Positions 12,373 through 40,138 of a stretch of DNA of 40,138 nt are shown one piece after another. Below the pieces are notes generated by a model. It ran no database searches, was not told where the DNA came from, and was given only the letters and a program-made list of their open reading frames with translations. A program made the translations under genes and the position numbers. Source of the stretch: Myxococcales bacterium (GTDB lineage Bacteria > Myxococcota_A > UBA9160 > SMWR01); NCBI GenBank assembly GCA_013215605.1, contig JABSQW010000114.1, positions 1 to 40,138 of the forward strand, given 5' to 3'. Positions within the stretch are counted from its first letter, which is position 1; the number at the start of each line of letters is the position of its first letter.

Positions 12373-12449
12373 CACCCGAGCGCGCCCGCTGGGTGCTTGC
12401 GTCCGGGACCCGCACCTGCGAACTCACGGGTTGCGTGGGGACGCCCGGG

Positions 12450-15645: not shown

Positions 15646-15693
15646 AGCGCCGTGCTGTCACTCTGGCGGCCGTCCCCGTTGCTTCCAAGCGAG

Positions 15694-15724
15694 CGGGCGG
15701 GCTGGATCGGCTCCAGCCCGCCCG
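15694..15724. terminator. Strong bidirectional hairpin between convergent genes
   Basis: CGGGCGGGCTGGA-TCGGC-TCCAGCCCGCCCG, perfect 13-bp stem with 5-nt loop. Confidence 0.65.
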
Positions 15725-15740
15725 GACTTCGTCTGACGAT

Positions 15741-16229: not shown

Positions 16230-16344
16230 GCTTGCTACCTCCTGTTGGTCCGAAGAAGTAGGCACCGTGAGCGAGTCGTCAACCGACGCAGACGATCTTT
16301 TTCCGTGCATCTCGGTCGCGGCCCCGTAGGGCCGCGCGCAGCAT

Positions 16345-17223
16345 TCAGATCTTGCGAAGGGGCTCGATCACGTTCTCCGCGTACTGCTCGAGATGGTCGC
16401 ACTCCTGCTCGAGCGTGGGCGACTCCGCTCCAATCGCGAGCGAGGGCGGATAGCTGAGCGTCGCCGTCATCCCCTTCTGCGCCATACGCGTGAAGAGCGC
16501 TTCATCGGGCTCACCCGCCAGCGGCACGAGACACTCGAAGCTGTCGCCAGCGCGACCCTCTTCCGCGCGCAGCCGCGCGAGTGTGTCGAGTACCGCGGAT
16601 GCACTCTGCTCGTCGTGTCCATGACCGATCCAGCCCTGGGCGAGCCGCGCGGCGCGGCGCAACGCAATCTTGCTCGAGCCACCCACCCAGATCGGAATCT
16701 CGAACGAGGCCGCCGGACTCATGCTGATTTCCGGGAACTCGAAGAACTCCCCCTCGTGGGAGACCGGCTTCCCGGACCACAGCTTGCGGAGCACCTCGAT
16801 CTGTTCGTTCATTCGGCGCCCTCGGGTCTCGAACGGGATGCCCTGGATGTCGAACTCCTCCTTCATCCAGCCGGTTCCGATGCCGAGCGCGAGCCGACCG
16901 CCCGAAATCGCGGCGACGGTGGACGTCTGTTTCGCGACCTCGATGGGATCGTGGAGCGGCAGGATATAGACGGCGACCGAGAACTTCAGGCGCTCGGTAA
17001 CGGCCGCCATCGCACTGATCGCACACCACGGCTCGGGAAACGGCGTCGTCTTCGCGAACAGTGGCGTTCCGTCGGGCGAGTAGGGGTAGCTGGACTCGAT
17101 GTCTTCCGGGTAGAAGAGATGGTCCGCCATCAGCACACCCTCGAACCCGACCTCCTCGGCCTTCCTCGCGAGGGGAACGAGATGCGCCGGATCCGTGAAC
17201 GAGACCGAGATCCAGAACTTCAT
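16345..17223 (-). CDS. LLM class flavin-dependent (F420-type) oxidoreductase
   Basis: MKFWISVSFTDPAHLVPLARKAEEVGFEGVLMADHLFYPE...YILPLHDPIEVAKQTSTVAAISGGRLALGIGTGWMKEEFD. Confidence 0.92.
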   Translation of the reverse strand: MKFWISVSFTDPAHLVPLARKAEEVGFEGVLMADHLFYPEDIESSYPYSPDGTPLFAKTTPFPEPWCAISAMAAVTERLKFSVAVYILPLHDPIEVAKQTSTVAAISGGRLALGIGTGWMKEEFDIQGIPFETRGRRMNEQIEVLRKLWSGKPVSHEGEFFEFPEISMSPAASFEIPIWVGGSSKIALRRAARLAQGWIGHGHDEQSASAVLDTLARLRAEEGRAGDSFECLVPLAGEPDEALFTRMAQKGMTATLSYPPSLAIGAESPTLEQECDHLEQYAENVIEPLRKI

Positions 17224-17409
17224 GGGAGGCGCGCTCCTAGGCGTGGAGAATTTCCGCGTAGTCTACAGACGCGCTCTTCGGGTGCGGAAGCTGAATCGAC
17301 CGACGGCGGTCAGGCCAGCGCTCCAGCGAGCAGTCCGGAGAGGCCGCCGAAGAGTCGCCGGGTGTCGGCTGCGCCGCCGCCGATCACGCGCATCCCTCCG
17401 ACCGGCATG

Positions 17410-18606
17410 CTAGATGATCTCGTCTTCGGCGAGGCGCTCGAGATCGGCCGGGCCGAGGCCAATCTCTGCAAAGATCTCCGCGTTGTGGGCGGCGAGGTCG
17501 GGCGCGAGGGCGCGCTCGCGCGGTTCGGCTCCGGAGAACTTGAGCGGGTTGCCGTGGAAGACGACCTCGCCGAGATCCGGGTGGGGGTGGCGCTCGATCA
17601 TCTCGCGCGCCAGGAGCTGCGGGTCGTCGAGGAGCTCGTCGGGACGCACGACCTTCGCACACGGAAGCTCGGCGCCACCCCGACCCAGAACGCCCACCAC
17701 CTCGTCACAGGTCCGCTCTGCCACCCACTCGCCGACGATCGCGTTGATGAGCGTGCGGTTGGCCGCGCGGCTCCTGTAACTCCTGAAGCGCTCGTCGCTG
17801 ATGAGCTCCTGCTTGCCAATGGCGGCGGCCAGGATGCGGAAGAGCTTGTTGCTGCCGACGGCGATCGCCACGAATCCGTCACGGGCGGCGTACGCGTCGT
17901 ACGGAGCCGTGTACGGGTGCTGGTTGCCGACGCGCGAAGCCTCCGCGCCGATGCCCGCGTGAATCGTGGCGGCGGAATCGGTGATGGCGAAGATCGCGTC
18001 CTGATTCGACACGTCGAGCACGCGCGCCACACCGGTGCGGTCGCGGTCGCGCAGCGCCACCACCACGCCGAGCGCGAGATAGAGACCGCCCACGTAGTCG
18101 CCGAGGGCGCCGCCACCACGCACGGGCGCCGCGTCTGGAAAACCCGTCATCGCCAGGAGGCCGCCCGTGGCCTGCGCAACGATGTCGTAGGAAGCCTCGC
18201 CGGCGCGGGGGCCCGTGTTGCCGAAGCCATTGAGTGAAGCCACCACGCAGCGCGGATTGCGCTCCTGAATCGCAGCCGCCGAGAGCCCCCGGGCGTCGAG
18301 CCAGCCGGCGCGGAAGTTCTCCACCACCGCGTCGGCGCGCTCCACGAGGCGCAGGAGGAGGTCGCGGCCCTCCGGCTTGCGCAAGTCGAGGGTGATCGAG
18401 CGTTTGCCGCGGTTCGTATTCTGAAAAGACAGAGAGGTTTGCCCCACCGCGGACGGGCCGTAGCGGTAGTCGTCGCCCGTGCGCGGGCGTTCGACCTTGA
18501 CGACGTCGGCGCCGAGATCCGACAAGACGCTCGTCGCGAAGGGCCCCGCTACGACGCGCGTCAGATCGAGGATGCGCACGCCGTCGAGCAGTCGCCCCGT
18601 TACCAC
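17410..18606 (-). CDS. CaiB/BaiF family CoA-transferase
   Basis: GTG start; LLDGVRILDLTRVVAGPFATSVLSDLGADVVKVERPRTGDD...NRGKRSITLDLRKPEGRDLLLRLVERADAVVENFRAG. Confidence 0.93.
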   Translation of the reverse strand: MVTGRLLDGVRILDLTRVVAGPFATSVLSDLGADVVKVERPRTGDDYRYGPSAVGQTSLSFQNTNRGKRSITLDLRKPEGRDLLLRLVERADAVVENFRAGWLDARGLSAAAIQERNPRCVVASLNGFGNTGPRAGEASYDIVAQATGGLLAMTGFPDAAPVRGGGALGDYVGGLYLALGVVVALRDRDRTGVARVLDVSNQDAIFAITDSAATIHAGIGAEASRVGNQHPYTAPYDAYAARDGFVAIAVGSNKLFRILAAAIGKQELISDERFRSYRSRAANRTLINAIVGEWVAERTCDEVVGVLGRGGAELPCAKVVRPDELLDDPQLLAREMIERHPHPDLGEVVFHGNPLKFSGAEPRERALAPDLAAHNAEIFAEIGLGPADLERLAEDEII

Positions 18607-19445: not shown

Positions 19446-20195
19446 CTACTCCTTCTCTCCGCTCGGGAGCACCAGACCGGTCGCCCAATCGATCACCGCG
19501 TTGAACTTCGCCTGATTCACAGCCGCTGCCGGATCGACGTTCTTCGGGCAGACCTCACTGCACTCGTTGGCGAACGAGCAGGAGAAGACCGTGCCCTCGC
19601 CGCGGAAGATCGCATTGCGCTCGCTGGCGCCCTCGTCGCGGGAATCGACGTTGTAGCGGTGACCGAGGGCGATGGCCGCGGGCCCGAGGAACTCGGGCTC
19701 ATTGCTGACGACCGGACACGCCGAGTAGCAGAGCATGCAGTTGATGCACATGCTGAACTGCTTGAACTCCTCGAGCTCCTCCGGCGACTGCCGCACCGGA
19801 CCGTCTTCGGCGGCGAGCTCCTTCGCGCGGATGATCCAGGGCTTCACCTTCTTGAACTTGTCCATGAAGCCGTCCATCTCCACGACGAGATCGCGGATGA
19901 CGGGAAAGTTCGAGAGGGGAGTGATCTCGACCGTGTCGCCGTACTGGCTCACCGAGTCCTTGCAGGTGAGGCGCGGTTCACCGTTCACCATCATGCCGCA
20001 GCTGCCGCACACCGCCATCCGGCACGACCAGCGGTGGGAGAGCGTGCCGTCGACTTCATCTTTGATGTAGTTGACGGCGTCGAGGACCTTCCAGTCGGGG
20101 TCGACGGCGATCTCGTAGCTCTGGGTCTTCGGCACTTCGTCCACGTCGGGATCGAAACGCGTGATCACGAAGGTCTTCTTCGGCGGGTCGCTCAT
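19446..20195 (-). CDS. frdB: Fumarate reductase/succinate dehydrogenase iron-sulfur subunit
   Basis: SHRWSCRMAVCGSCGMMVNGEPRLTC (2Fe-2S); CINCMLCYSACPVV and CSFANECSEVCPKNVDP clusters. Confidence 0.93.
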   Translation of the reverse strand: MSDPPKKTFVITRFDPDVDEVPKTQSYEIAVDPDWKVLDAVNYIKDEVDGTLSHRWSCRMAVCGSCGMMVNGEPRLTCKDSVSQYGDTVEITPLSNFPVIRDLVVEMDGFMDKFKKVKPWIIRAKELAAEDGPVRQSPEELEEFKQFSMCINCMLCYSACPVVSNEPEFLGPAAIALGHRYNVDSRDEGASERNAIFRGEGTVFSCSFANECSEVCPKNVDPAAAVNQAKFNAVIDWATGLVLPSGEKE

Positions 20196-21919
20196 CAGTA
20201 CTTGCGCTCCTCAGGCTCCCACTTGCCCAACGTCACCGGCTTCGTACTCACCTTCGGCCCGGTGGAATCGAAATGGCACAGGGAGTGGTGCAGGAAGTTC
20301 TGGTCGTCGCGGTTCGGAAAGTCGCGCCGGGTATGCGCGCCGCGCGATTCCTTGCGCACGACGGCGCAGCTCGTGAGCGCCTCGGAGATGTCGATCATGT
20401 TCGACAGCTCGAGGACAGAGATCAGCTCGGTGTTGAACACCTTGCTGTGGTCCTGGATCTCGACGTCTTCGAAGCGGCGCTTGATTTCCTGCACCGTGTC
20501 GACGGACGCCTGAATCTGTACCTCCTCGCGGTAGACGCCGCAGCCCGATTCCATCGTGTCGTTGAGCGCGCGGCGCAGGCCAGAGATCTTCTCGGTGCCG
20601 CTCGTCTTCGCGCGCAAGGCGTCGACACGGCCGGCTTCATTGGCGCCCTCGGAACGCAGCGAGCTCTCGTCGCCCTCGCTCGCGCCCCTGGCGAACTCCA
20701 GCGCTTTTCGACCCGAACGCGCGCCGAACACGAGGCACTCGGTGAGTGAGTTGGAGCCGAGCCGATTGGCACCGTTCAGCGAGACCGACGCGCACTCGCC
20801 AGCGGCGTAGAGTCCGTCGATGCTGGTGCCGCCTTCGATGTCCGTGTCGATGCCACCCATCATGTAGTGGACCACGGGCCGGATCGGGATGGGATCGTGC
20901 ACGGGGTCGACACCGACGTAGAGCTTCGAGAGCTCGCGGACCATCGGGATCCGGGACTGGATCTTCTCCTCGCCGAGGTGCGTGAGGTCGAGGTAGACGT
21001 GCTCCCCCCAATCGCCCTGCGTGACCGCACGGCCGGCTTCGATCTCCTGGATGATCGCGCGGGAGATCATGTCCCGCGGGCCGAGCTCGGCTTTCGTGCC
21101 GACGCCGTAGTCGCGCTCGACGAGGAAGCGCTCGCCGTCGGCATTGCGCAGGTACCCCCCCTCGCCGCGCGCCGCCTCGGTGATGAGGATGCCCGTGCCG
21201 GGGAGACCCGTCGGGTGGTATTGGACGAACTCCATGTCCTTCAGCGCCACGCCCGCACGGTAGGCGAGAGCCATTCCATCGCCCGTCTTGATGTTGCCGT
21301 TCGTCGTGAACGGGAAGGCCTTGCCCCCGCCCCCGGTGGCGAGCACCACGGCGCGGCCGAGGACGAGGCGCATCACGCCCTCGCGAATATCGAGGGCGGC
21401 CACGCCGCGGATGGTATTGCCGTCGACGAGGAGCTTCGTCACGAACTGCTCGTCATAACGGACGATCTGGTCGAAGCGCATCGAGTGCTGGAACAGCGCG
21501 TGCAGCATGTGGAAGCCGACCTTGTCGGTGGCGAACCAGGTGCGCTTCGTGCTCATCCCTCCGAAGGCACGGGTGGCCACCGTGCCGTCTTCGTTGCGGC
21601 TCCAGGGGCAGCCCCAGTGCTCGAGGAGCGCGAGCTCCTTCGGCGCCTCCTGGACGAAGTACTGGATCACGTCCTGATCGCCGAGAAAGTCCGATCCCTT
21701 CACGGTGTCGTACCCGTGCATCTCGAAGTCGTCGTCATCGCGCGCGACGGCGGCGGCCCCCCCCTCGGCGGAGACCGTGTGGCTCCGCATGGGATAGACC
21801 TTCGAGACCATTCCGATCGATACGCTCGGGTCGGCTTCTGCGACCGCGATCGCCGCGCGGAGGCCTGCGCCTCCACCACCGACGATCACGATGTCGTGAC
21901 GTAGAACTTCGATTTCCAT
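20195..21919 (-). CDS. frdA: Fumarate reductase/succinate dehydrogenase flavoprotein subunit
   Basis: DIVIVGGGGAGLRAAIAVAEADP..., RSHTVSAEGGAAAV, FVQYHPTGLPGTGILITEAARGEGGYLRN, YAAGECASVSLNGANRLGSNSLTECLVFG. Confidence 0.95.
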   Translation of the reverse strand: MEIEVLRHDIVIVGGGGAGLRAAIAVAEADPSVSIGMVSKVYPMRSHTVSAEGGAAAVARDDDDFEMHGYDTVKGSDFLGDQDVIQYFVQEAPKELALLEHWGCPWSRNEDGTVATRAFGGMSTKRTWFATDKVGFHMLHALFQHSMRFDQIVRYDEQFVTKLLVDGNTIRGVAALDIREGVMRLVLGRAVVLATGGGGKAFPFTTNGNIKTGDGMALAYRAGVALKDMEFVQYHPTGLPGTGILITEAARGEGGYLRNADGERFLVERDYGVGTKAELGPRDMISRAIIQEIEAGRAVTQGDWGEHVYLDLTHLGEEKIQSRIPMVRELSKLYVGVDPVHDPIPIRPVVHYMMGGIDTDIEGGTSIDGLYAAGECASVSLNGANRLGSNSLTECLVFGARSGRKALEFARGASEGDESSLRSEGANEAGRVDALRAKTSGTEKISGLRRALNDTMESGCGVYREEVQIQASVDTVQEIKRRFEDVEIQDHSKVFNTELISVLELSNMIDISEALTSCAVVRKESRGAHTRRDFPNRDDQNFLHHSLCHFDSTGPKVSTKPVTLGKWEPEERKY

Positions 21920-22034
21920 CGAGGTATGGGTCCTCTTCCCGGCCCGGCGACCGAGGTCGTCCCGGCGGTGACTGGCATCCTGGTTCCGGACCGTGCCAAC
22001 GTCGCAGATCCCTCGATGTCGAACCGGGTCCATT

Positions 22035-22059
22035 CGGGTCGGGTCTCGACCCGGTTTTT
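22035..22059 (+). terminator. Rho-independent terminator-like hairpin on the + strand, in the frdA 5' region
   Basis: CGGGTCG-GGTCT-CGACCCG followed by GTTTTT. Confidence 0.45.
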
Positions 22060-22298
22060 CGCGAAAGCTGCGGGGCTCCGGAGGCGGAACAGCGCGGGCG
22101 AGCGGTGATGAGTCCCACCCTTCGCGATCCGAGCCTGTCGGGGCGTGCCGGCCACTCTGGTCCCGATGCTGCGGAATCGCGCAGGGGGTCTCGAGGCGCT
22201 CAATTTGTAACGAATCCCGAGGGGTTCGGAAAGGCGGAGAAGGCCTCCCAGCCGACGATCCCGGCTGAAATGGCGGGAGTTGGGAAGCGGCTTCGGGC

Positions 22299-22321
22299 GC
22301 TGTGACCGGACCCGTCACAGC
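22299..22321. promoter_or_regulatory. Perfect inverted repeat GCTGTGAC-N7-GTCACAGC in the frdA / GGDEF-EAL divergent region
   Basis: 8-bp perfect arms around CGGACCC. Confidence 0.35.
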
Positions 22322-22850
22322 CAGCGGCCATCCTGCACGGCGTTGGAACATCCCCCTGACTCGCGGGTCGTTGGCGTAGTGGTACCAGCGGCCCGCGGGT
22401 CTTCTCTCCCCGAGGTCGCGCCGAGCCTCGCGCCACAGGAGTCACTCGTGATTGCTCGTCCGTATTTCGCACCCCCGCCGGTTCAATCCCTGTCGCCATC
22501 AGCCGGCGTCAGATCGCCGTCCCCCCTGTGGCGAGGCTGTCTCGAGACGCTGTTCATCGTGGTCTCGTTCGTGGTGGGTGGAATCGTGGGGGCGGCCGGG
22601 CTAGAACGCGCCATCGGGTCCGGGCACGCCTATCCCGGGCTACGCCCCGTCCCGCACCTGGGCCTGGACGCACCCCGAGTCGGCACGGAGCGGCCGGAGA
22701 CGCCTGCCTGAGGACGGGCCCAACCCGCGCTCTCGGAGGTCGCGCTCCCCGAGGGCACTCGTAGGGGAAAAGGGGCCCGCACGGCTCACGAAGCCCTCCG
22801 GAACGGTCGATGGGTTCATCGAGCATCGAGGTTTCTCAGGGGACCAGAGA

Positions 22851-24623
22851 TTGAGCCAGCGCGCCCCCTCAGCAGGGGAAGACCCGATCCGCGTCCTCCT
22901 CGTGGACGGCAGCCCGAGTGAGGAGCGGCGGATCAGCCAGTTGCTCGCCAGCGGCTCCGGCTCAGTGCGGTTCTCGGTATTCGAGGCCCCCGGAATCGAG
23001 GCTGCCCTCGCACGTCTCGTCGACGAGCCCTTCGATGTCGTCGTGCTCGATCTCCGGCTGCCCGAGAGTGAAGGGCTCAACACCCTCGAACGCGCCAAAG
23101 CGGTGGCGACGAGCGTTCCGATCGTCGCTCTGGCGGACAGCGACGCGGAAGAAGAGGGGCTGCGAGCGCTGCGCCTCGGGGCGCAGGAATACCTCGTCAA
23201 GTCCAGGCTCGACGCCCACACGATGGCGCGGAGCGTGCAGTACGCAGTCGAGCGCCACCGGCTGATCGCACAGCTGCGCGCAACGCGAGAGCGCGAGCAC
23301 TTCCTGGCGACCCACGACGCACTCACCCGGCTGCCCAATCGCTGCTACTTCCACGACCAGCTGATGAGTGCGATCTCGTACGCCGGCCGTCACAGCCGCA
23401 AGCTGGCCGTCCTGTATCTCGACCTCGACAGCTTCAAGGCGATCAATGACAACCTCGGCCACCCCGTGGGAGACACGCTGCTGATCGAGGTCGCGAATCG
23501 GTTGTCGAGCATCGTTCGCCGCAGCGACGTCGTCGCACGGCTCGGAGGCGACGAGTTCGTCCTGTTGCTTCAAGACGTGAAGCAGGATGCCGCGGCCGAA
23601 ATGGTGGCACGCAAGGTCAACGAGGTTCTCGCGCAGCCCTACGTTCTCTCGGATCGCGAATACTGGGTAACCGCGAGTATCGGAATCTCGGTCTTTCCCC
23701 GCGACGCCTGCGACCCCGATGAGCTGGTCCGGGCCGCCGACATGGCGCTCTACCAGGCGAAGAGGATGGGGCGCAACAACTTCCAGTTCTACAGCGAGAA
23801 GATGAACGAAGCCGCTAAAGCTCGCCTTTCCATCCAGCGGAAGCTGCACGTCGCCCTGGAACGGAACGAGTTCCGCGTGTACTACCAGCCGAAGATCGAG
23901 GTCGCATCGGGGCGCATCGTCGGCATGGAGGCACTGCTGCGCTGGCGCGATCCCGACCGCGGTCTCGTCACACCCGCCGAGTTCATCCCCGCGGCCGAGG
24001 AGACCGGTCTGATCGTGCCGATCGGAGCCTGGGTGCTTCGCCAGGCGTGCGCCCAGACTCGGGCATGGCAGGAAGCCGGCCATACCGACCTCCGCGTGTC
24101 CGTGAATCTCTCGGCGTACCAGATCGATGACGGCAGCCTGCGCGAAACCGTCGTACGCACGCTGTGGGATTCGAACCTTCCGCCCACTTCTCTCGAGCTC
24201 GAGATCACCGAGAGTGCGCTGATGCACAACGAAGCGGCCGCGATCGAAACGCTGCGCGAGATCAACGAGATCGGCGTCCACCTCTCGCTCGACGACTTCG
24301 GTACGGGCTACTCGTCACTGAGCTACCTCAAGCGCTTTCCCGTCGATACGGTCAAGATCGACCGCTCGTTCATCGAGGAGATCGCGATCGATTCAGACGA
24401 TCGCGCCATCGTCGGCGCCATTCTGAGTATCACCGAGCATCTGGGGCTGACGGCGGTTGCCGAAGGGGTCGAGACGCTGCAGCAGCGCGACCTGCTGTAC
24501 GCGAGTGGCTGCCAGCAGCTTCAGGGCTTCCTCTACAGCCCTCCCGTCCCGGTGGACCTCGCCACCGACCTTCTGGGAGTGGGCTGCCTCGTGCCTGCGA
24601 CGGACAAGGAAGACGCGTCGTAG
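22851..24623 (+). CDS. Response regulator receiver protein with GGDEF and EAL domains
   Basis: [23 protein letters not shown]...[14 protein letters not shown]...[45 protein letters not shown]...[29 protein letters not shown]. Confidence 0.93.
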
Positions 24624-25460: not shown

Positions 25461-28400
25461 ATGGCGGAAGCAGCCGGCCAAAGCAACGAGTCCAATTCGC
25501 TCAGATTCGCGCGATTCATCGTGCGAAACCGCGCCGTCGTGGCGTCGCTGCTGATCGCCGCCAGCCTCTTTTTCGTCTACCCGATCCTCAACATGATCTC
25601 GTCGGCGCTCGGAACCGAGCTGCCCGGCCCGATCGTGCGGATCGATACCAAAGCACGCGACCTCTTCCCCGACCATCCCTACATCCACGCCCAGGACAAG
25701 TACGCGAGCGAGTTCGGCGGCTCGTCGGCAGTCGCCGTCGCGGTGGTGGTCGAAGAGGGCACGATCTTCACGCCGGAGGTTCTGAAGGTCATCCGACAGG
25801 TCACTCGGCGGGTGGACGGCCAAGGCTTCGAGGGTTTCCAAGACGAGCGGGACGAGATGCGAGACATCCTCGAGGAGGACGAATCCCACACCGTTCAGGA
25901 GATCCGCGACAGGCTCGACCGAGCTTACCCCCCCTACCCCGTCAACCACGACCAGATCCGCTCGATCGCCCACGGCAGCACGCGCGTCATCCAGATCCAG
26001 CCCGACGGCAGCATCGAGGGCGACGTCCTGATGAAGAAGCTTCCAAAGACCCAGGAGGAAGCCGACGAGCTGCGCGAGCAGGTGCGCCAGAACCCGCCCA
26101 TCATCTACGGACGCCTGGTGTCTCGTCCCGACGAAAAGGGCGCACTGATCACCGCGGGCTTCGTGACCGATCGCCTCTCGAGCCGAGAGGTCTACATGGC
26201 GGTGTTCAATCACCTCCAGCGAATGAAGGCGGACCTCGAGACCGACAACATCAAGATCTACGTCTCGGGCGAACCCATCCTCACCGGCTGGGTCATCACC
26301 CACGCGTTCGAGATCGTGCAGTACGTCGTGATGACGGTCGCGATGATCTTCTTCCTTCTCTGGCTCTACTTCCGCAGGTGGCACGGGGTACTCATTCCCG
26401 CGGTGGCCGCACTCATGACGGTGATCTGGGGGCTCGGCTTCACCGGGTGGGTGGGTATCACCTTCGACCCATTGATCCTCGTGATCCCGATGATCATCAC
26501 GGCGCGGGCGGTATCGCACACCGTACAGATGGCGGAGCGCTTCTTCGAAGACTACGAGGTCATGCTGCCCCGCCTCGGTGATCCGCAACGCGCCAAGATC
26601 GAGGTGGCGACCGTCGCCATGGGTGAACTCGTCGTCCCCGGCACCCTCGGCATCATCACCGACGTCGCCGGCCTGCTGGTCATTCTCGTCACCACGATTC
26701 CGCAGATGCAGAACCTCGCGATATTCGGTGCGTTCTGGGTGCTCTCGATCATCGCGACGGTGGAGATCCTGCACCCGGTCCTGATCTGCTACTTGCCGGC
26801 GCCCAGCGAGCACGAGCACTTCCTGCCCGGCTTCATGGTGCGGTTCACGCGGGCGGTGGGCGACATCTGTACCCACCCGACGGGCAAGTACGTCGTGGCG
26901 GTCATCACCTTGACGCTGTTCACCGGGTCCACCTACATCGCGCTCTACCACTCGAAGATCGGAGAAGCGACGCCCGGCACTCCACTCCTGTGGCCGGATC
27001 ACGAATTCAATGTGGCCACTGACGAGATCGCCACGCGCTTCGGTGGCGTCGACAGCTTCGTCGTCTTCTCCGACGGCGACCGACCCAAGGCCAGCGAGGA
27101 CGCCGCGCCCATCAAGGCGATGGAGAACTTCGAGCGCTACCTGACAACCAACACGGACCTGGGCGCCTCCGTATCTGTCGCGCCGTTCCTGCGAAGCTCG
27201 TGGCGCATGAACCACTACGGAGATCCGAAGTGGTATTTCATTCCGAACAACACGGGAACGGTGCGGCAGATGATCTTCCAGCTGCGCCAGAACGGAGCCC
27301 CTGGTTTCATGCGGCCGTTCATGACGGACGACGGCCGCAGGGCGAGCATGTCGTTCTTCTTCCCCGACCACAAAGGCGACACGGTCCAGTACGCGCGGCA
27401 CTTCGCGGAGAGGTTCGTCTCCGAAAACCCACTGGGCGAGATCTACGTGCGTCTCGACATGGACAAGGCCGAGCAGTTCGCCGGCTTCTTCGACACCGAG
27501 AACCTCAAGGACATGGGCTACTACATGTTCGGCCCGATGCTTCCGCCGCGGAACCACAGCCTGACTGTGCGCATTCGCCAGGACGACGGCAGCTACGAGG
27601 AAGTTTCGGTCATCCCGGCTTCCGAGGGCCTCCCCGAGTGGATCGAGGATTTCCGCGAACAGGCCGTCGAGGACTACTGGAACACGTTGGACGACACGGA
27701 CGAGGACTCCATCTTCACGTGGCCGGACACCCTTCAGGAGTGGGAGATCAGCGATATCGACGCCTGGTGGGAGCACCACGATTCGGGCATCCGCGCGGTC
27801 GCCGTGAACACCAAGGACCTCATCGTCTCGGACACGAAGGCAGTCGACAGCACACCGAAGTACCAGCCCACGAACTCATTTACGCGCGGTGTGCAGTTCG
27901 TGCTGGCGGGCGGCAGCATGGGCATTCTCGCGGCCATCAACGACGAGGTCGAGCGCAGCCACGTCGCCAACATCTCGCTCATCTTCATCGTGATCTTCGT
28001 GCTTCACTCGGTCACGTACAAGTCGGTTCCGAGCGGGGCGATCATCCTGCTGCAGATCGCCACCGCCACGATGCTGTCGCTCGCCTACATGTCCCTGCGG
28101 AACATCGGTCTCAACATCAACACGCTGCCCGTGCAGTCAGTGGGTGTCGGAATCGGTGTCGACTACGCGATCTACATCGTGGACCGCATACGCCAGGAGG
28201 TGGCGGACACCGCGGACATCGACGAGGCAGTACGACGCGCGGTCCGCACCACCGGCATGGCAGTGAGCTTCACGGCCACCACGATCGTGGGAGGCATCTT
28301 CCTCTGGAGTTTCTCCAGTCTGCGCTTCCAGGCCGAGATGGCTCAGCTTCTGGTGATCCTCATGATCATCAACATGCTCGGCGCCATCACGGTAGTGCCC

Positions 28401-28523
28401 GCCTTCTACTCGATCCTGCGTCCGAAGGTGGCAACGGCGCTCCTGTCCGACGAGCAACGCGAGTCGATCCGAATCCAGAAGGACCGCGAGAAGAAGCTCG
28501 GCCTGCGCGACGAAGACGAATAG
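25461..28523 (+). CDS. RND / MMPL family transporter (1020 aa)
   Basis: Two TM blocks with large extracytoplasmic domains; IVQYVVMTVAMIFFLLWLYFRRWHGVLIPAVAALMTVIWGLG; PVQSVGVGIGVDYAIYIVDRIRQE; TGMAVSFTATTIVGGIFLWSFSSLRFQAEMAQLLVILMIINMLGAITVVPAFYSILRP. Confidence 0.92.
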   Translation: MAEAAGQSNESNSLRFARFIVRNRAVVASLLIAASLFFVYPILNMISSALGTELPGPIVRIDTKARDLFPDHPYIHAQDKYASEFGGSSAVAVAVVVEEGTIFTPEVLKVIRQVTRRVDGQGFEGFQDERDEMRDILEEDESHTVQEIRDRLDRAYPPYPVNHDQIRSIAHGSTRVIQIQPDGSIEGDVLMKKLPKTQEEADELREQVRQNPPIIYGRLVSRPDEKGALITAGFVTDRLSSREVYMAVFNHLQRMKADLETDNIKIYVSGEPILTGWVITHAFEIVQYVVMTVAMIFFLLWLYFRRWHGVLIPAVAALMTVIWGLGFTGWVGITFDPLILVIPMIITARAVSHTVQMAERFFEDYEVMLPRLGDPQRAKIEVATVAMGELVVPGTLGIITDVAGLLVILVTTIPQMQNLAIFGAFWVLSIIATVEILHPVLICYLPAPSEHEHFLPGFMVRFTRAVGDICTHPTGKYVVAVITLTLFTGSTYIALYHSKIGEATPGTPLLWPDHEFNVATDEIATRFGGVDSFVVFSDGDRPKASEDAAPIKAMENFERYLTTNTDLGASVSVAPFLRSSWRMNHYGDPKWYFIPNNTGTVRQMIFQLRQNGAPGFMRPFMTDDGRRASMSFFFPDHKGDTVQYARHFAERFVSENPLGEIYVRLDMDKAEQFAGFFDTENLKDMGYYMFGPMLPPRNHSLTVRIRQDDGSYEEVSVIPASEGLPEWIEDFREQAVEDYWNTLDDTDEDSIFTWPDTLQEWEISDIDAWWEHHDSGIRAVAVNTKDLIVSDTKAVDSTPKYQPTNSFTRGVQFVLAGGSMGILAAINDEVERSHVANISLIFIVIFVLHSVTYKSVPSGAIILLQIATATMLSLAYMSLRNIGLNINTLPVQSVGVGIGVDYAIYIVDRIRQEVADTADIDEAVRRAVRTTGMAVSFTATTIVGGIFLWSFSSLRFQAEMAQLLVILMIINMLGAITVVPAFYSILRPKVATALLSDEQRESIRIQKDREKKLGLRDEDE

Positions 28524-31889: not shown

Positions 31890-32504
31890 TCAGGCCCCCG
31901 CCTCGATGAGCCTCCGCGCGTCTCTCAGCAGACTGACGGGCCCGTCCCCGCGGCTGCGGTAGAAGCCGCGGATGATTCCCTCACCGTCCACCAGAACGAA
32001 ATGACTCCCATGGCGGATATTCCGGGGCTCGCCTTCCTTGACGGGAACTTCTTCCTGGGCCTGCTTGAACCCCTTGACCACCACTTCTTCGGTGATCTCC
32101 GGCGGACCGGTGAGGAACGACCAGTTGGTCTGGTCGACCCGGTGGTGACTGGCATACGCCTCGAGTACCTGCGGCGTATCGACCACAGGATCGACGGTAA
32201 ACGACAGGAAGTGGACCGAGTCGGCGTTTTTCGAGAGGTCCTTCTGGATCCCCGCCATCGTGCTGGTGAGTAGCGGGCAGATGTCGGGGCACGACGTGAA
32301 GATGAAGTTTGCCACCCACACCTTGCCGAGGACCCTGTCGGAGCCGAACGTCGCCTGGCGTTGATCCGTGAGCTCGAAGACCGGCGCCTTGGAGATCCGG
32401 GGGAGCTCGGGTGCCGGTCCGCAGGCACTGGCGAGTACGAGCGCTGCCGGGCCCAGGCTTGCGAAGACGGCGATTCGGAACGCGATTCGCTTTGTGGAGT
32501 TCAT
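31890..32504 (-). CDS. SCO1/SenC/PrrC family copper-delivery lipoprotein-like protein
   Basis: N-terminal lipobox-like LVLASAC; NFIFTSCPDICPLLTSTMAGIQKDL (CxxxC); FTVDPVVDTPQVLEAYA; RHGSHFVLVDGEGIIRGFY. Confidence 0.92.
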   Translation of the reverse strand: MNSTKRIAFRIAVFASLGPAALVLASACGPAPELPRISKAPVFELTDQRQATFGSDRVLGKVWVANFIFTSCPDICPLLTSTMAGIQKDLSKNADSVHFLSFTVDPVVDTPQVLEAYASHHRVDQTNWSFLTGPPEITEEVVVKGFKQAQEEVPVKEGEPRNIRHGSHFVLVDGEGIIRGFYRSRGDGPVSLLRDARRLIEAGA

Positions 32505-33147: not shown

Positions 33148-33459
33148 CTAGAGCGGCCAGAGCGGGCCGTTCCCTATTTGCGTCCCCAAGGGCAGGATGA
33201 ACAGTACGAAGAGGAACGCCGCGCAAAGGAGCAGGACCCAGAGGATCACCTTTTCCTCGGAGATCAGATGCATGAAGTAGCCGGCCACGAGGCCTGCCTT
33301 CACGGTGGCCACGACCATCGCCAAGGTGATGGCAAACCCGGTCGGCAGGTGCAGATACGAGATCCCGACCGTGACCACCGTCAAGACCGCCAGCGCGACG
33401 AAGACCGTCACGTATACCTTGATGTGCTGCCTTACGTGTTCGACGTCAGATTCGCTCAT
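33148..33459 (-). CDS. Cytochrome c oxidase subunit IV-like (prokaryotic COX4/CyoD type)
   Basis: HIKVYVTVFVALAVLTVVTVGISYLHLPTGFAITLAMVVATVKAGLVAGYFMHLISEEKVILWVLLLCAAFLFVLFILPLG. Confidence 0.88.
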   Translation of the reverse strand: MSESDVEHVRQHIKVYVTVFVALAVLTVVTVGISYLHLPTGFAITLAMVVATVKAGLVAGYFMHLISEEKVILWVLLLCAAFLFVLFILPLGTQIGNGPLWPL

Positions 33460-33468: not shown

Positions 33469-34098
33469 CTACAAAAGATAGAGTGTGGGAAAGAGAAAGA
33501 TCCAGACCAGGTCCACGAAGTGCCAGTAGAGCCCCGCGATCTCGATCCGGCCGGTAAGCCGCTCTTTGTCGGTCTTCCACAGGGCGACACCGAAGAACAG
33601 CAGCCACAGGTTGACCAGGATCCCCAAGATGACGTGCAGCGCATGTAGCCCGGTCAACGTGAAATACAGACCGTAGAACACGGACGGATCGCCGGCCTCG
33701 GGCCAACCGGTGGCGGGGAAGATGTGGTGACCGAATTTGTCGCTGTACTCGAAGGCCTTGACCACCAGGAAGACCAGTCCCAGGGCGATCGTGGTTCCGA
33801 AATAGCGGCGGAACGCTGCGAGGTTGTCCATCTTGAGCGACGCCCACGCCATCACCATCGTGATGCTCGAGGTGATGAGCACGAGGGTGTTCGCGGTCCC
33901 GATGGGTACGTTCAGACCGGCTTCCACGCCGGTGGGCCAGTTCTCGACCGCCGCGCCCACGCGCAGGAGCACATAGGAGGAGAAGAGCGCGCCGAACAGC
34001 ATGACCTCGGAAGCCAGGAACAACCAGATCCCGAGCTTTCCGCTGGTGACGCCCGTAACCGGATGCGGCTCGACCTGGTAGGGGATGACGACGGACAC
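33469..34098 (-). CDS. coxC: Cytochrome c oxidase subunit III
   Basis: [29 protein letters not shown]...[17 protein letters not shown]...[21 protein letters not shown]. Confidence 0.95.
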
Positions 34099-34101: not shown

Positions 34102-35826
34102 CTATGCCTCCTGCTTCACATATTGCGGGGAGAAGTCGCGATCGGCACCTGGCACACTGTATTCATACGGCCCGCGGTAGACCACGGGGGTCTCGGTAAA
34201 GTTCCCATGGGGCGGAGGTGTCGGTGTCGCCCATTCCAGGGTCGTCGCCTGCCAGGGATTCTCCTCGGCCCTCTCGGTCTTCCGCATGCTCCAGAAGAAG
34301 TTGATGATGAACGGAATCTGGGCAGCGGCGAGGCACCAGGCCGACCAGGAAGTCATCACGGTGAGGCCGTGTACCGCCGCTCCGTGGTCATAGATCGTAG
34401 GGTCGAACAGCCGGCGCGAGACCCCCGCCATGCCCTCGAACATCATGGGCATGAAGACGCCGTTCATGAAAATGAAAGAGAGCCAGAAGTGCACCTTTCC
34501 GAGAGTGACGTTCAGCGTCCGGCCCGTGGCCTTTGGATACCAGTAATAGATCCCCGCAAACATCGCGAAGATGGTGCCGGGTGCAACCACGTAGTGGAAG
34601 TGTCCGATCACGTAGTAGGTGTCGTGCAGGTGGGCGTCGGGAGCCGCCAATCCGAGGGGGAGTCCCGTGAGCCCGCCGATCCCGAACATGGGCAGGAACG
34701 CCAGCGCGAAGAGCATGGCGACGGAGAATCGGATCGAGGCGCCCCACAGGCTGATCACCAGGCACGTCAGGATGATCACCGAGGGAATCGAGATGATCAT
34801 CGTGGTGATCTGGAAGAAGGTGCTCATGGTGGTTCCCATGCCGGTCATGTACATGTGGTGCGCCCACACGCCGAAGGACAGGAAACCGAGGACGAGGAGC
34901 GAGTACACCATCGGGCGGTAGCCCCACAGGGGCTTGCGCGTGTTGTTGGCGATCACCTCGGCGATGATCCCCATGCCCGGCAGGATCAGCACGTACACCT
35001 CGGGGTGGGCGAGGAACCAGAACAGGTGCTGCCAGAGCAGGGGGCTGCCGCCGCCGGCCGCGACGATCTGTTCCCCTCCCACGACCAGCCCGCTCGGAAG
35101 GAAGAAGCTCGTGCCGGCCAACCGGTCCATCAGCTGAAAGATGGCCGCGGCCTGGAGCGGGGGAAACGCCAGCAGCAGCAGGAAGGCGGTCACCAGCTGC
35201 GACCACACGAAGAACGGCAGGCGGAAGAACGTCAGGCCCTCCGCTCGGATATGGAGGATCGTGACGATGAAATTGAGCGCGCCGAGTAGCGACGACGCAA
35301 TGAGGAAGATCATTCCGATCAACCAGAAGGTCTGACCCGTCGTCGCTGTGACGGCGAGAGGCGCGTACGAGGTCCAGCCTGAGCTCGCCGCGCCGCCCGG
35401 CAGGAAGAAGCTCGCCAGCATCACGATGCCGCCGATCACGAACGCCTGGTAGCTCATCATGTTGAGCCGCGGAAAGGCCATGTCCGGCGCGCCGATCTGC
35501 AGTGGAACCACGTAGTTTCCAAACGCTCCGACGGCGAGCGGGACGATGCCCATGAAGACCATGATGGTGCCGTGCATGGCGCCGAGCTGGTTGTAGAAAT
35601 CGGGCAGCATGGCCCCCCGATCCACCAGGGTATCCGGAAGCAACCCTCCGATGATCGGGATCGCCGACCCCGGATAGGCGAGCTGCCAGCGCATCATCAT
35701 CATCAGGGAGAAGCCGAAGAACAAGAAGACGAGAGCCGTTATGCCGTACTGGATCCCGATCGTCTTGTGATCCGTAGAAAACACATACTTGCGTAAGAAT
35801 CCCAGATCCGAGTGTTCATCACTCAT
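34102..35826 (-). CDS. coxA: Cytochrome c oxidase subunit I (A-type heme-copper oxidase)
   Basis: STDHKTIGIQYG, MLPDFYNQLGAMHGTIMVFMGIVP, QHLFWFLAHPEVYVLILPGMG, VWAHHMYMTGM, HDTYYVIGHFHYVV. Confidence 0.97.
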   Translation of the reverse strand: MSDEHSDLGFLRKYVFSTDHKTIGIQYGITALVFLFFGFSLMMMMRWQLAYPGSAIPIIGGLLPDTLVDRGAMLPDFYNQLGAMHGTIMVFMGIVPLAVGAFGNYVVPLQIGAPDMAFPRLNMMSYQAFVIGGIVMLASFFLPGGAASSGWTSYAPLAVTATTGQTFWLIGMIFLIASSLLGALNFIVTILHIRAEGLTFFRLPFFVWSQLVTAFLLLLAFPPLQAAAIFQLMDRLAGTSFFLPSGLVVGGEQIVAAGGGSPLLWQHLFWFLAHPEVYVLILPGMGIIAEVIANNTRKPLWGYRPMVYSLLVLGFLSFGVWAHHMYMTGMGTTMSTFFQITTMIISIPSVIILTCLVISLWGASIRFSVAMLFALAFLPMFGIGGLTGLPLGLAAPDAHLHDTYYVIGHFHYVVAPGTIFAMFAGIYYWYPKATGRTLNVTLGKVHFWLSFIFMNGVFMPMMFEGMAGVSRRLFDPTIYDHGAAVHGLTVMTSWSAWCLAAAQIPFIINFFWSMRKTERAEENPWQATTLEWATPTPPPHGNFTETPVVYRGPYEYSVPGADRDFSPQYVKQEA

Positions 35827-35900: not shown

Positions 35901-36659
35901 TCAGTAATCGTCCAGCCCCAGCGCCGCGTGCTCTTCATCCAACCAGCGCTGGTAGTCCTCCGGCGACTCGATGATGAGATCCGCCTTCATCTCGTAGTGG
36001 CCCAAGCCGCACAGCTGTGCGCACCCCACTTGGAACTTGCCCGTGGATTTCGCTTCGAACCAGATTGGGATCTCCATCCCCGGGATCAGATCCTGCGTGA
36101 TGCGCATGACGGGCATCTTGAAGCTGTGGATCACGTCCTTGGCCGTGAGGCGCGCGATCACCGGCCTCCCCACCGGGAAGTGCAGACCCCGGACGGTGAT
36201 GTCGTCGAACCCGTCCTCGTCGTCGAAATCCAAGCCGGCCGGGTTGTCGTCGGCGTAGAACTCCACGCCGGTCCTGCCGAATTTCCCGTCCTGCCCCGGG
36301 TAGTGGAACAGCCATTTGAACTGCTCCGCCACTACGCGTATGACGACCGGATTGTCCTGCGTGGGAAAGTCGTTCTTGATCTTGGCCCAGACGGGCATGG
36401 CGAAGAAGGCCAGGATGACCGCCTCCGCGACGGCCACCCCTACTTCCAGCCACTTGGAGAAGCCCGCCTTGATGGGCTTGTAGACCGCGACGTGGCCCGG
36501 TCGCTCTCGGAAGCGAACCAGACAAAACACCATGAAGGCCCCCCAGCCGACGAACAACGCCAGCATGAACCAGTGGATCACGTTGATCATGGTGTCGATG
36601 TCGTCGCCCTGCACCGAGACGTTCGGGGGCAACCACCAGCCGTATTCCGGTTCGTTCAT
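35901..36659 (-). CDS. coxB: Cytochrome c oxidase subunit II
   Basis: Two N-terminal TMs, VIRVVAEQFKWLFHYPG, DVIHSFKMPVMRITQDLIPGMEIPIWFEA, CuA-site CAQLCGLGHYEM. Confidence 0.95.
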   Translation of the reverse strand: MNEPEYGWWLPPNVSVQGDDIDTMINVIHWFMLALFVGWGAFMVFCLVRFRERPGHVAVYKPIKAGFSKWLEVGVAVAEAVILAFFAMPVWAKIKNDFPTQDNPVVIRVVAEQFKWLFHYPGQDGKFGRTGVEFYADDNPAGLDFDDEDGFDDITVRGLHFPVGRPVIARLTAKDVIHSFKMPVMRITQDLIPGMEIPIWFEAKSTGKFQVGCAQLCGLGHYEMKADLIIESPEDYQRWLDEEHAALGLDDY

Positions 36660-36713: not shown

Positions 36714-37454
36714 TTAGCTCTTCGTGGGGTACGTGAACTCGAGCGTCTGGGTCTCGCCGTCGCCGATCGTGACGGTCTGTTCCATCACGTCGTACTTCTC
36801 GTGCCAGGCTTCGATGGTGTAGGTGCCCGGGGGGAGGTTTGGCAGTTCGAACGAGCCGTCCGGCCCGGTCACCGCGAAATAGGGATGGGGGACCACGGCG
36901 ACGAATGAGTTCATCCACGGATGAATGTCGCATTTGACTTTCATCGGCGGGCTCGCCTCGTCCCGTCTCATGCGGATCGCGACGTTTGAGGCGCCCGCCG
37001 GCTGGGACCGGTTGAAGGACCGGTTCTTCTTTCCGAAACCGTGGACGTTGTGGGCCGTGGGATCGCTGGTCTTGACCGAGAGCGACTGGCCCTGCCGCAT
37101 GCCCTGCACGTGGGGGGTGTACATGCAGCCCTTCTGATCCAACAGGGCGTCGCCCTCGGGCATCGGGAACTTCCAGCCCTCGGCGCCCGTCTTGACCCAG
37201 ACGAAGACGTTTCGCAGGGTCCCGTTCTCGTTGATGATGACCGTCTCCGGCTTCTGCCGCTCGCCGCCGTGCATCTCTGCGCACTTCGCGTCGGCGCCCG
37301 CCATGTCGATACGGCGCATTCGCGGTGCTTTGCCCTCGAACTTCACGCTGCCCGTGACCTTCGCCGTGCCCAGTGCCGGGTTCCACGGCTTGTCCTCGGC
37401 ACCGCTCGCCGCGGCAAGAAAGAAAAGGCTGATCAACACGAGAAATAGACGCAT
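36714..37454 (-). CDS. Secreted cupredoxin-like protein with carboxypeptidase-regulatory-like domain
   Basis: MRLFLVLISLFFLAAASGA signal; TAHNVHGF...MKVKCDIHPWMNSFVAVV (His...Cys-x2-His-x2-Met); C-terminal GPDGSFELPNLPPGTYTIEAWHEKY. Confidence 0.8.
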   Translation of the reverse strand: MRLFLVLISLFFLAAASGAEDKPWNPALGTAKVTGSVKFEGKAPRMRRIDMAGADAKCAEMHGGERQKPETVIINENGTLRNVFVWVKTGAEGWKFPMPEGDALLDQKGCMYTPHVQGMRQGQSLSVKTSDPTAHNVHGFGKKNRSFNRSQPAGASNVAIRMRRDEASPPMKVKCDIHPWMNSFVAVVPHPYFAVTGPDGSFELPNLPPGTYTIEAWHEKYDVMEQTVTIGDGETQTLEFTYPTKS

Positions 37455-37643
37455 GTCCAAGGACCTCCCTACCCAGGCGCGAAGAGATACTGCTATTGGC
37501 GCTCTCGGAAGCGCAAGGCGATTCCGATTCTCTTGACGGGGAAACATCGGTGAGAAAGCGCCGGCAAAATCCAGAGTACCTCTAGAAGATGCGGGCAGTT
37601 TTACCATATCATGCGCCAGTCTTCACCCGAATCGGAGGAGTGC

Positions 37644-39398
37644 ATGGCTGGGGGCGGGGGGTGGCCGAAAGCGCTGGTAGGAGTCCGCGGCGGGATCCTG
37701 AAGATTTCGCTGATCCTGACGGCGGTCTATTGCCTCGTCTTCCTGCTCCCTCGGTTGTTCGAGACCGCCGACTATCGGCACTTTCCCCTGATCGGCAGCC
37801 GCGTGCTCGTGTGGGGCCTCGCCCAGGCGCACCTCATGTTCGCCGCCTTCGTGCTGGGCGTGCCGATCTTCGTGCTGATCGCCGAGGTGCTCGGCGTCGT
37901 TTCCAAGAACGAACGCTACGACGGTCTCGCCAAAGAGTTCACCCGCCTGCTCGCCATGAGTTACACGATCACCGCGACGCTGGGCGGGCTTCTCCTGGTG
38001 GCGCTGGTGGTCTTCTACCCGAAGTTCACCACGCACATGGAGAAGGTGTTCGATCCCACGTGGTCCTTCTACGTGGCGGTCATCTTCTGCGAGGCGCTGT
38101 TCGCGTACTCCTACTGGTACACCTGGGATCTGCTGCAGGGTTCGCGGAAGCGCTGGCACCTGCTCATCGGCGTCATGGTCAACGCGTTGGGCATCGCCAT
38201 CCTCGCCATCACGAACGCCTGGACGGGATACATGATGACGCCAGGCGGTGTAGAGGGCACCGATCTGGCCATCACGGTCACGAGCCGATACGACGCCTTC
38301 GTGAACTACGCCTGGAATCCTCTCAACATTCATCGGCTGCTCGCCAATGTGTGTTTCGGCGGCGCCATCGTGGGCGCCTACGCGGCCTTCCGCTTTCTGG
38401 CCGCCACGAGCGACGAGGAGCGCGAACGCTTCGACTGGATGGGCTACATCGGCAGCTTCATCGCCGTGGCGGCCTTCATTCCTCTGCCGTTCGCCGGCTA
38501 CTACCTGGGCCGCGAGATCTACGCCTACAGCCAGCAGATGGGCGTGTCCATGATGGGCGGTTCCTTCGCCCAACTGTGGATCCTCCAGGCCATCCTGATC
38601 GGCGCACTGTTCCTGGCCATCAATCTCTACCTCTGGCTCGCCATGGGTCGCATCCCCGGAGGCGAGCGCTATCGCAAGTACCAGGCGCCGGTGCTGTTCG
38701 TCCTGGCGACGGGCCTCGCCGTCTGGGCGACGCCGCACACCATCATCGCCACGTTCGCCGAGATGAAGGCCATGGGTTCGGCCCACCACCCGAGGCTGGG
38801 CGTTCTGGGCGTGATGTCGGCCAAGAACACCGCCGTCAACCTGATGATTCTCTCGACGTTCATCACGTTCATGCTCTACCGGCGAGGGAACAAGGAGGCG
38901 ACGGCGTCGTTCGCCGTCCCGGGCAAGGGGATCCAGGGGCTCGCACTGCTGGCGACGATCGTGGGGATCGTCTGGATCGGCATCTACGGCTACTTCGTCC
39001 CCGCCGCGGTGCGGGTCGGGCTCTCGGCCTACCAGCCGCTGATGGTGGGCGCGTTCATGATCTTGTTCCTGGCGCTCGAGGTCCCGATTTTCCGGGGTGC
39101 GAATTCGCTCGGCGAGATCCAGTGGGGTCGGATGCCGCGGATCTCCCAGTACGTCCTGTTCTTCCTGGCCGTTACCTTCACCTGGCTCATGGGACTCATG
39201 GGATACATCCGCTCCGGCATCCGCCAGTACTGGCACGTCTACCAGGTCATGCGGGACACGAGCGAGGGGGCGTACATCCCGACCCACGGGTTCGCAACGA
39301 TCGTCGTCTCGTTCATCGTGGTCCTCTTCTTCTTGTTCGTGTCGATGGTGTTCGCGCTGGCGATGCGCTCCGAGCGGAGAGAGCAAGCGGCCAAGTGA
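37644..39398 (+). CDS. Cytochrome bd-like oxidase subunit I (CydA superfamily, divergent)
   Basis: QAHLMFAAFVLGVPIFVLIAEVLG, FCEALFAYSYWYTWDLLQGSRKRWHLLIGVMVNALGIAILAITNAWTGYMMTPGG, NPLNIHRLLANVCFGG; ATG with GGAGGAG RBS (ORF opens at 37611). Confidence 0.85.
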   Translation: MAGGGGWPKALVGVRGGILKISLILTAVYCLVFLLPRLFETADYRHFPLIGSRVLVWGLAQAHLMFAAFVLGVPIFVLIAEVLGVVSKNERYDGLAKEFTRLLAMSYTITATLGGLLLVALVVFYPKFTTHMEKVFDPTWSFYVAVIFCEALFAYSYWYTWDLLQGSRKRWHLLIGVMVNALGIAILAITNAWTGYMMTPGGVEGTDLAITVTSRYDAFVNYAWNPLNIHRLLANVCFGGAIVGAYAAFRFLAATSDEERERFDWMGYIGSFIAVAAFIPLPFAGYYLGREIYAYSQQMGVSMMGGSFAQLWILQAILIGALFLAINLYLWLAMGRIPGGERYRKYQAPVLFVLATGLAVWATPHTIIATFAEMKAMGSAHHPRLGVLGVMSAKNTAVNLMILSTFITFMLYRRGNKEATASFAVPGKGIQGLALLATIVGIVWIGIYGYFVPAAVRVGLSAYQPLMVGAFMILFLALEVPIFRGANSLGEIQWGRMPRISQYVLFFLAVTFTWLMGLMGYIRSGIRQYWHVYQVMRDTSEGAYIPTHGFATIVVSFIVVLFFLFVSMVFALAMRSERREQAAK

Positions 39399-40138
39399 GA
39401 GCGGTCTTCCTCCGAATCCTGGGATTCGTGATCCTGATCGACCTCTTCTACATGTCGATCGGTCAGTTTTACCTGGCCCAGTCGGAAGAGCATCCGCCGG
39501 CCGAACTCGAAATTGCGCTCGATACCGACACCGACACCCTGGTCGGGATGGGCGAGACCCTGGTCCAGGCGAAGGGCGGCTGCCTCCTCTGCCACAAGAT
39601 CACCGAGGTGGGGAACACGCGCGGGCCGGACCTGCGGGGGATCGGGGGACGGGCCGCGGCGCGACAGCCCGGTATGAGCGCCGAGGCCTACCTCACGGAA
39701 TCGCTCGTCGACCCGGGCGCCTACGTGGTCGCGGAGTTCGCCACGGCCGGCGGCATGAGCATCATGCCGGCCGCTGACAAACCGCCGGCCGACTTCTCCC
39801 CGACGGAGCTCAAGGCTGTCGTCGCCTACCTCCAGTCCCTCGGCGGCGAGATCACGGTCGCGATCACGGCGCAGGACGTCGCCGCCGCCGAGGCCCGGAA
39901 GACCAAGCCAGCCGCGGTCGTGACCAGCAACCATCCGGGGTTCGCCCTCCTCACGTCGAAGGGCTGCGTGGCCTGCCACGACGTGAACGGCAGCGTGCGC
40001 CTCGTGGGGCCACCCCTCTCGAACGTCCAGGAGCGCCTGTCGGCCGCCGAGATTCGCGAGTCGATCGTCGATCCGAACGCCGTCATCGCCGAGGGCTTCC
40101 AGCCGGACCTGATGCTGCAGGACTTCGCCGATCAGCTG
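39395..40138 (+). CDS. Membrane-anchored diheme cytochrome c (3' truncated by window edge)
   Basis: GTG start overlapping previous stop; N-terminal TM VFLRILGFVILIDLFYMSIGQFYL; two heme motifs CLLCH and CVACH; not in supplied ORF track because it has no in-window stop. Confidence 0.88.
   Translation, partial: MRAVFLRILGFVILIDLFYMSIGQFYLAQSEEHPPAELEIALDTDTDTLVGMGETLVQAKGGCLLCHKITEVGNTRGPDLRGIGGRAAARQPGMSAEAYLTESLVDPGAYVVAEFATAGGMSIMPAADKPPADFSPTELKAVVAYLQSLGGEITVAITAQDVAAAEARKTKPAAVVTSNHPGFALLTSKGCVACHDVNGSVRLVGPPLSNVQERLSAAEIRESIVDPNAVIAEGFQPDLMLQDFADQL

Follow-up and report, generated by a model that had tools for sequence, protein, structure and literature searches.

The window analyzed here, a stretch of 40,138 nucleotides, is an entire contig (C18) of G000, a Myxococcales genome assembly of 6.74 Mb in 713 contigs (89.9% complete). 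At its right-hand end, a cytochrome c oxidase (cox) operon and a gene for a cupredoxin-like protein diverge from a bd-like gene, which is followed by a cytochrome c gene cut by the end of the contig:

31890-32504, minus strand: SCO1/SenC copper chaperone, downstream of the cox genes
33148-33459, minus strand: CoxD, subunit IV (COX4_pro)
33469-34098, minus strand: CoxC, subunit III
34102-35826, minus strand: CoxA, heme-copper oxidase subunit I, the sole PF00115 match in G000
35901-36659, minus strand: CoxB, cytochrome c oxidase subunit II, with the CuA motif CAQLCGLGHYEM
36714-37607, minus strand: secreted cupredoxin-like protein, with the motif HNVH...CDIHPWM recognized by eye and a C-terminal CarboxypepD_reg domain
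37644-39398, plus strand: P0001, bd-like (putatively OR-N-type) CydA homolog of 584 amino acids with about 14 transmembrane (TM) helices, Q-loop quinol residues absent
39395-40138, plus strand: cytA, membrane-anchored cytochrome c, residues 1-248, with CLLCH and CVACH

The GTG start codon of cytA at 39395 overlaps the TGA of the bd-like gene (39396-39398) by 4 nt (GTGA). The cupredoxin-like gene, a divergent neighbor in the window, is kept at many bd-like loci. Elsewhere in the window, adjoining genes for succinate dehydrogenase/fumarate reductase iron-sulfur and flavoprotein subunits occupy 19446-22351 on the minus strand; a response regulator of 590 amino acids with GGDEF and EAL domains is encoded at 22851-24623, upstream of a gene for an MMPL-family transporter (25461-28523).

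A CydA Homolog without the Canonical Quinol Site

The coordinates and the CydA-like nature proposed for P0001 in the initial annotation were both right: the 584-residue product matches PF01654, the sole family found above its cut-off (69.1 bits for a cut-off of 26.2; E-value 3.6e-19), and is the single PF01654 match in G000. Its sequence matches in the PDB are CydA proteins only (5doq_A, 2.7e-11; 9r2g_A, 1e-5). Because its differences from the 84%-identical copy of locus L003 lie mostly at third codon positions (66, 57, and 254 at positions 1, 2, and 3), P0001 looks to be under purifying selection. Hydropathy predicts about 14 TM helices, a number also reported for the bd-like protein of Nitrospina (PMC3578206). 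An AlphaFold2 model derived from ten input sequences was of low-to-moderate confidence (pLDDT 61, pTM 0.63), and all ten of its Foldseek matches in the PDB at an E-value of 0.001 or below were cytochrome bd subunit I (CydA); we take the model as tentative support for the fold and as too poor for heme placement.

In E. coli CydA, solved bd structures identify H19, H186, M393, and E445 as heme ligands, and K252 and E257 as quinol residues of the Q-loop; E445, M393, and E99 of canonical bd serve the hemes and the proton path. We compared these positions across 77 aligned CydA-type sequences, E. coli CydA among them; 22 of the rows are canonical, and a given site is covered by either 52 or 54 bd-like rows. 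The histidine landmarks of the initial annotation were borne out, H63 of P0001 corresponding to H19 (kept in 52/52 covered bd-like rows) and H230 to H186 (54/54), as was its glutamate, E150, which corresponds to E107 (50/54). R53, the equivalent of R9, is likewise present in all 52 covered rows. Conversely, the columns of K252 and E257, which hold Lys and Glu in 22/22 canonical rows, are both Gly in P0001 and in 52 of the 54 bd-like rows, in agreement with the earlier statement that no quinol-binding loop is evident. The M393 column is occupied by Asn (N395 in P0001; 48/54 bd-like rows), the E445 column by Leu (L518; 46/54), and the E99 column by Tyr in P0001 and all 54 bd-like rows. The GRQPW motif had been declared missing; the canonical motif and its proline (P450, replaced by Tyr) are indeed lost, but a degenerate form, RQYWH, survives, in which R527, Q528, and W530 correspond to R448, Q449, and W451. 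The equivalent of R448 is kept in 52/52 bd-like rows and that of W451 in 50/52.

Two features peculiar to the bd-like rows may bear on the lost ligands. The residue following W530, H531, is a histidine in 52/52 covered bd-like rows, the canonical rows having mostly Val or Ile, and K394, beside the M393 column, is invariant (54/54); from this conservation pattern, H531 or K394/N395 could be a candidate replacement heme ligand. Moreover, 132 residues separate the M393 and R448 columns in P0001, versus a canonical median of 56, which amounts to about 76 extra residues. Overall, P0001 shares with canonical CydAB (E. coli bd-I, Geobacillus 5doq) the core fold and the equivalents of H19, H186, E107, R448, and W451, and differs from it by its extra helices and by the lack of the Q-loop residues, M393, E445, and CydB.

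Consistent with the remark that no CydB follows, the CydB profile PF02322 has no match anywhere in G000 (89.9% complete), nor in the six other genomes searched (G028, 97% complete, G063, G046, G181, G307, and G067), while G048 and G448 do match. PF01654 itself has one match in G000, one in G028, and two in G046, counts that a very divergent paralog or a gene in the missing 10% of G000 could escape. That P0001 is subunit I of an ordinary quinol-oxidizing cytochrome bd, with CydB encoded elsewhere, would agree with its PF01654 match, but it is extremely improbable given the absence of PF02322 from seven genomes and the replacement of K252 and E257 by Gly, and the loss of M393 and E445 together with these residues and CydB led us to reject the canonical CydAB reading. 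The initial annotation had named a normal Q-loop and GRQPW motif with a cydB partner, or a loss of the heme histidines, as contrary to its reading; we looked for both and found neither.

Probable Continuation of the Operon

Among complete loci, the nearest relative is L003, which encodes the bd-like copy of 84% identity and comes from a metagenome-assembled genome (MAG) titled Myxococcales. Its bd-like gene is followed by cytA, cytB, and alt-NxrC, then by genes for a Usp+PCP_red protein, a GNAT protein, a NUBPL/Mrp protein, and a PCP_red protein. CytA has 465 residues and three CxxCH motifs in L003, the third at residue 386, CytB is a monoheme membrane cytochrome c of 245 residues, and alt-NxrC (13903-15465, 520 residues) combines two cytochrome c domains, each with its CxxCH, an ethylbenzene-dehydrogenase-type heme-b domain (EB_dh, PF09459), and a C-terminal TM helix. 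In G000, the end of another contig, C444, encodes the C-terminal 59 residues of CytA, followed by CytB, alt-NxrC (70% identical to its L003 ortholog), Usp+PCP_red, GNAT, Mrp, and PCP_red proteins. Because this gene order matches L003, we infer that C18 and C444 adjoin, so that the extension sought beyond position 40138 would be found on C444, where the operon resumes. Identity to L003 CytA is 73% for residues 1-248, encoded in the window, and 61% for residues 407-465, encoded on C444; the gap between the two contigs corresponds to about 159 CytA residues, among which the third CxxCH is expected. The cytochrome c of the window had been described as diheme and as overlapping the bd-like stop codon by 4 nt. 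CLLCH, CVACH, and the overlap stand, but the orthologs of L002, L003, and L017 have three CxxCH each, so that "diheme" applies to the truncated portion.

Distribution and Phylogeny

Nine other genomes encode relatives of P0001 with 38-86% identity, and further bd-like relatives are found in many genomes of the window's phylum and in Nitrospirota. The module as a whole is recurrent in MAGs of Nitrospirota, Myxococcota, and Pseudomonadota. A survey of the neighbors within 12 kb of 36 bd-like genes bears out the conservation of the bd-like/cytochrome c pairing, with cytB-type genes at 28/36 and alt-NxrC-type genes at 26/36 loci; cupredoxin-type genes were present at 21/36 and cox genes at 7/36. 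Truncated contigs lower these counts, and some of the matches reflect weak similarity between cytochromes c; related genomes are represented among the 36 entries, as is one gene split between L048 and L049. Cox genes accompany the bd-like gene in the clade of the window (window, L002, L003, and L017) and at three other loci, L078, L080, and L117. The gene arrangement with coxBAC and a cupredoxin had been considered the less familiar part of the locus; this holds for the cox neighbor, but a cupredoxin is standard in the published cluster (PMC3578206).

In a quick maximum-likelihood tree, the bd-like sequences occupy one side of a branch with a support of 100 and the 22 canonical CydA (E. coli being included twice) the other, a split that partly reflects selection because the rows were gathered with P0001 as query; the tree samples these two sets, not OR-C or the reference set of Murali et al. 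Within the bd-like side, the window groups with L002, L003, L017, L004, and L005 (100), then with sequences from Rhodocyclales/Betaproteobacteria MAGs (96), and the bd-like paralogs of Nitrospirota group with P0001, apart from the 22 canonical rows. The orthologs 71-86% identical to P0001 (L002, L003, and L004) come from assemblies titled Planctomycetota, Myxococcales, and Gammaproteobacteria, and the bd-like gene is absent from 16/16 family-level relatives of the window that were sampled. These mixed titles and the absence from family relatives suggest horizontal transfer or mis-binned MAG contigs. Plasmid sequences searched with P0001 gave remote matches only (28-29%).

Comparison with Known Systems

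Proteins of this class and gene clusters of this kind have already been described. A cluster of bd-like_3, alt_NxrC_2, and two cytochromes c is known in Nitrospira moscoviensis (PMC6606698), which matches our module and shows that proteins of this class, lacking the Q-loop, occur in Nitrospira, as the initial annotation had stated. The Nitrospira-type cluster is conserved in Nitrospina and in the anammox bacterium Kuenenia, along with cupredoxin-like proteins (PMC3578206). Like it, the module described here encodes a bd-like protein of about 14 TM helices without Q-loop residues, an alt-NxrC with a heme-b domain, two CxxCH, and a membrane helix, and the accompanying cytochromes c CytA and CytB, with a cupredoxin-type protein nearby in both the window and L047. 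It differs in that the first cytochrome c is triheme in the orthologs, mono- and diheme cytochromes c being those that accompany the published cluster, in that Usp/PCP_red, GNAT, and Mrp/NUBPL genes come after the module, and in that the nitrite oxidoreductase (NXR) alpha subunit is undetected and an aa3 cox operon is divergent from the module. A further parallel is the terminal oxidase complex TO_1 of Ca. Manganitrophus, in which a bd-like protein is accompanied by a periplasmic cytochrome b that is thought to take periplasmic electrons (PMC9040806); by its description, it is also a bd-like complex of an organism studied for a metabolism other than nitrite oxidation, in that case Mn oxidation, but from another phylum and with other gene surroundings.

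The passages of PMC10839748 and PMC12342949 that relay Murali et al. (2021) describe OR-N as families of the cytochrome bd superfamily made of CydA homologs without a quinol site or CydB, with cytochrome c as presumed donor; OR-N1/N2 are thought there to pair with a second paralog, CydA'. P0001 resembles OR-N in being a CydA homolog without the quinol site, in the absence of CydB, and in having cytochrome c as presumed donor, and probably falls in this class, an assignment made by matching these class descriptions. Unlike in the OR-N1/N2 pairing, a second CydA' paralog was not detected in G000. What the present locus adds is a compact module in which NXR is undetected, the bd-like gene is single, and a cox operon is divergent.

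Respiratory Setting

The window's cox operon encodes the one heme-copper oxidase detected in G000; two were detected in G028. No cytochrome b of a bc1 complex was found in G000, G028, G181, or G307. We considered whether the module could fill a vacant complex III role, but rejected this possibility: despite the absence of bc1, contig C222 of G000 carries an alternative complex III (ACIII)-like cluster composed of a 5-heme ActA, an ActB of 1007 residues, an NrfD-type ActC, and followers. NXR was likewise rejected as a partner of the module, as no NXR alpha or type II DMSO-reductase alpha was detected in G000 (89.9% complete), G028 (97%), G063, G181, or G307. The best TIGR03479 matches scored 68 bits in G000, 132 bits in G028 (an ORF of 654 residues), and 69 bits in G063, while the positive control G448 has two NXR-like ORFs of 1158 and 1159 residues at 194-200 bits; because it encodes four bd-like paralogs along with these NXR-like genes, we infer that G448 is a Nitrospira.

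Proposed Function

The gene content points to a putative OR-N-type, quinol-independent bd-like complex encoded together with its periplasmic electron-transfer subunits CytA, CytB, and alt-NxrC, quinol independence being suggested by the loss of the K252/E257 quinol residues and the conservation of c-type cytochromes downstream. Periplasmic electrons would enter from a c-type cytochrome or a cupredoxin and might reach the bd-like hemes by way of alt-NxrC, CytB, and CytA, whereupon the bd-like subunit could reduce O2 with cytochrome c as donor. Respiration would then have two parallel branches, the complex and the neighboring aa3 oxidase, both fed by one set of periplasmic carriers, some of them reduced by ACIII. 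The view that P0001 has c-type cytochromes or a cupredoxin as redox partners in place of quinol, which had been expressed from the window alone, is supported by the lost quinol residues, the train of cytochromes c, and the cupredoxin neighbor. The same annotation had considered an oxidase and a c-to-quinone module alike.

The most likely reading, at somewhat better than even odds, is a cytochrome c-fed O2 reductase working in parallel to aa3, supported by the retention of the heme histidines, the loss of the quinol site, and the conservation of cytochrome c partners. OR-N enzymes have been inferred to use cytochrome c, confirmation being stated as lacking (PMC10839748), and we found no published O2-reductase activity for any OR-N enzyme in the literature. 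Several observations count against O2 reduction, namely the replacement of E445, M393, and E99, the presence of a complete aa3 oxidase next door, beside which a second oxidase might be superfluous, the failure to detect NXR as a donor to alt-NxrC, and the reported occurrence of the module in the anammox bacterium Kuenenia, where O2 respiration is unexpected (PMC3578206).

Some of the same observations fit a cytochrome c:quinone oxidoreductase, in which reverse electron transport, of the kind that autotrophy would need, would be driven by the proton motive force from high-potential cytochrome c or cupredoxin up to quinone, at a quinone site unrelated to the Q-loop. This function, already put forward for the module of Nitrospira, Nitrospina, and anammox bacteria (PMC3578206; PMC6606698), is compatible with the presence of the module in an anaerobe and with the loss of the heme ligand E445 and of E99, and the approximately 76 extra residues of the M393-R448 span could form another site. 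We regard it as a real but lesser possibility, because the canonical quinol residues are all gone and the ACIII-like cluster is available in G000 for exchange between quinone and cytochrome c. To our knowledge, no alternative quinone site is known.

It is rather unlikely that the module acts as a wiring hub, handing electrons from a periplasmic donor on to the adjacent aa3 oxidase, perhaps within a supercomplex, with the bd-like protein as a scaffold or charge-coupled relay and not a catalyst. Cox genes do adjoin the bd-like gene at the seven loci named above, the CuA site of CoxB implies that the oxidase accepts electrons from cytochrome c or a cupredoxin, and in Nitrospira bd-like proteins have been suggested to take part in a III/IV supercomplex (PMC6606698). 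However, 29 of the 36 bd-like loci have no nearby cox gene and some modules lie in other contexts, and the invariant H63, H230, R53, and R527 and the near-invariant W530 suggest that heme catalysis is retained. Quite unlikely, too, is a non-oxidase bd-like complex that, in bacteria other than nitrite oxidizers, would split or lift periplasmic electrons received from cytochrome c or cupredoxin, sending part of them to aa3 and part uphill to quinone; if it were true, OR-N modules would be general c-to-quinone energy converters, with nitrifiers exploiting one of several uses.

Whichever its reaction, the bd-like/alt-NxrC module has so far been read as nitrite-oxidation machinery, being conserved among Nitrospira, Nitrospina, and anammox bacteria. 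Its completeness in genomes without detectable NXR alpha or another type II DMSO-reductase alpha, including the 97%-complete G028, argues for a more general function, that of a quinol-independent route that links the membrane to periplasmic carriers. Such genomes, in which the bd-like gene is single, heme-copper oxidases are few, and both bc1 and CydAB are absent, also offer a simpler setting for testing OR-N than Nitrospira, with its four bd-like paralogs.

Related Gene Arrangements

L018 (G046:C138) and L004 each carry two bd-like genes per locus (about 590 and 657-718 residues) with their own cytB/alt-NxrC sets and cupredoxin-type genes; the genomes of both also encode many type II DMSO-reductase alpha homologs. 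A bd-like/Mo-enzyme pairing of another sort is seen at L009 (4838-11383) in Nitrospirota MAGs, where the neighbors of a gene for a shorter bd-like protein (498 residues) encode cytochromes c, a molybdopterin oxidoreductase, an Fe-S subunit, and a chaperone of the nitrate-reductase-delta type. At L006 (4875-7622), the bd-like protein and a diheme cytochrome c are apparently fused into a product of 915 residues, which may result from an assembly frameshift because a run of Lys codons lies at the junction; a model of this fusion, considered for docking, was uninformative (pLDDT 58, pTM 0.50). Finally, the bd-like module is accompanied in several lineages by PCP_red (PF08369) proteins of three kinds (Usp+PCP_red, stand-alone, and radical SAM+SPASM+PCP_red), whose genes lie at 15515-17611, 19479-19904, and 19919-21178 in L003, and at 9394-9864, 11634-13790, and 6568-7824 in L047.
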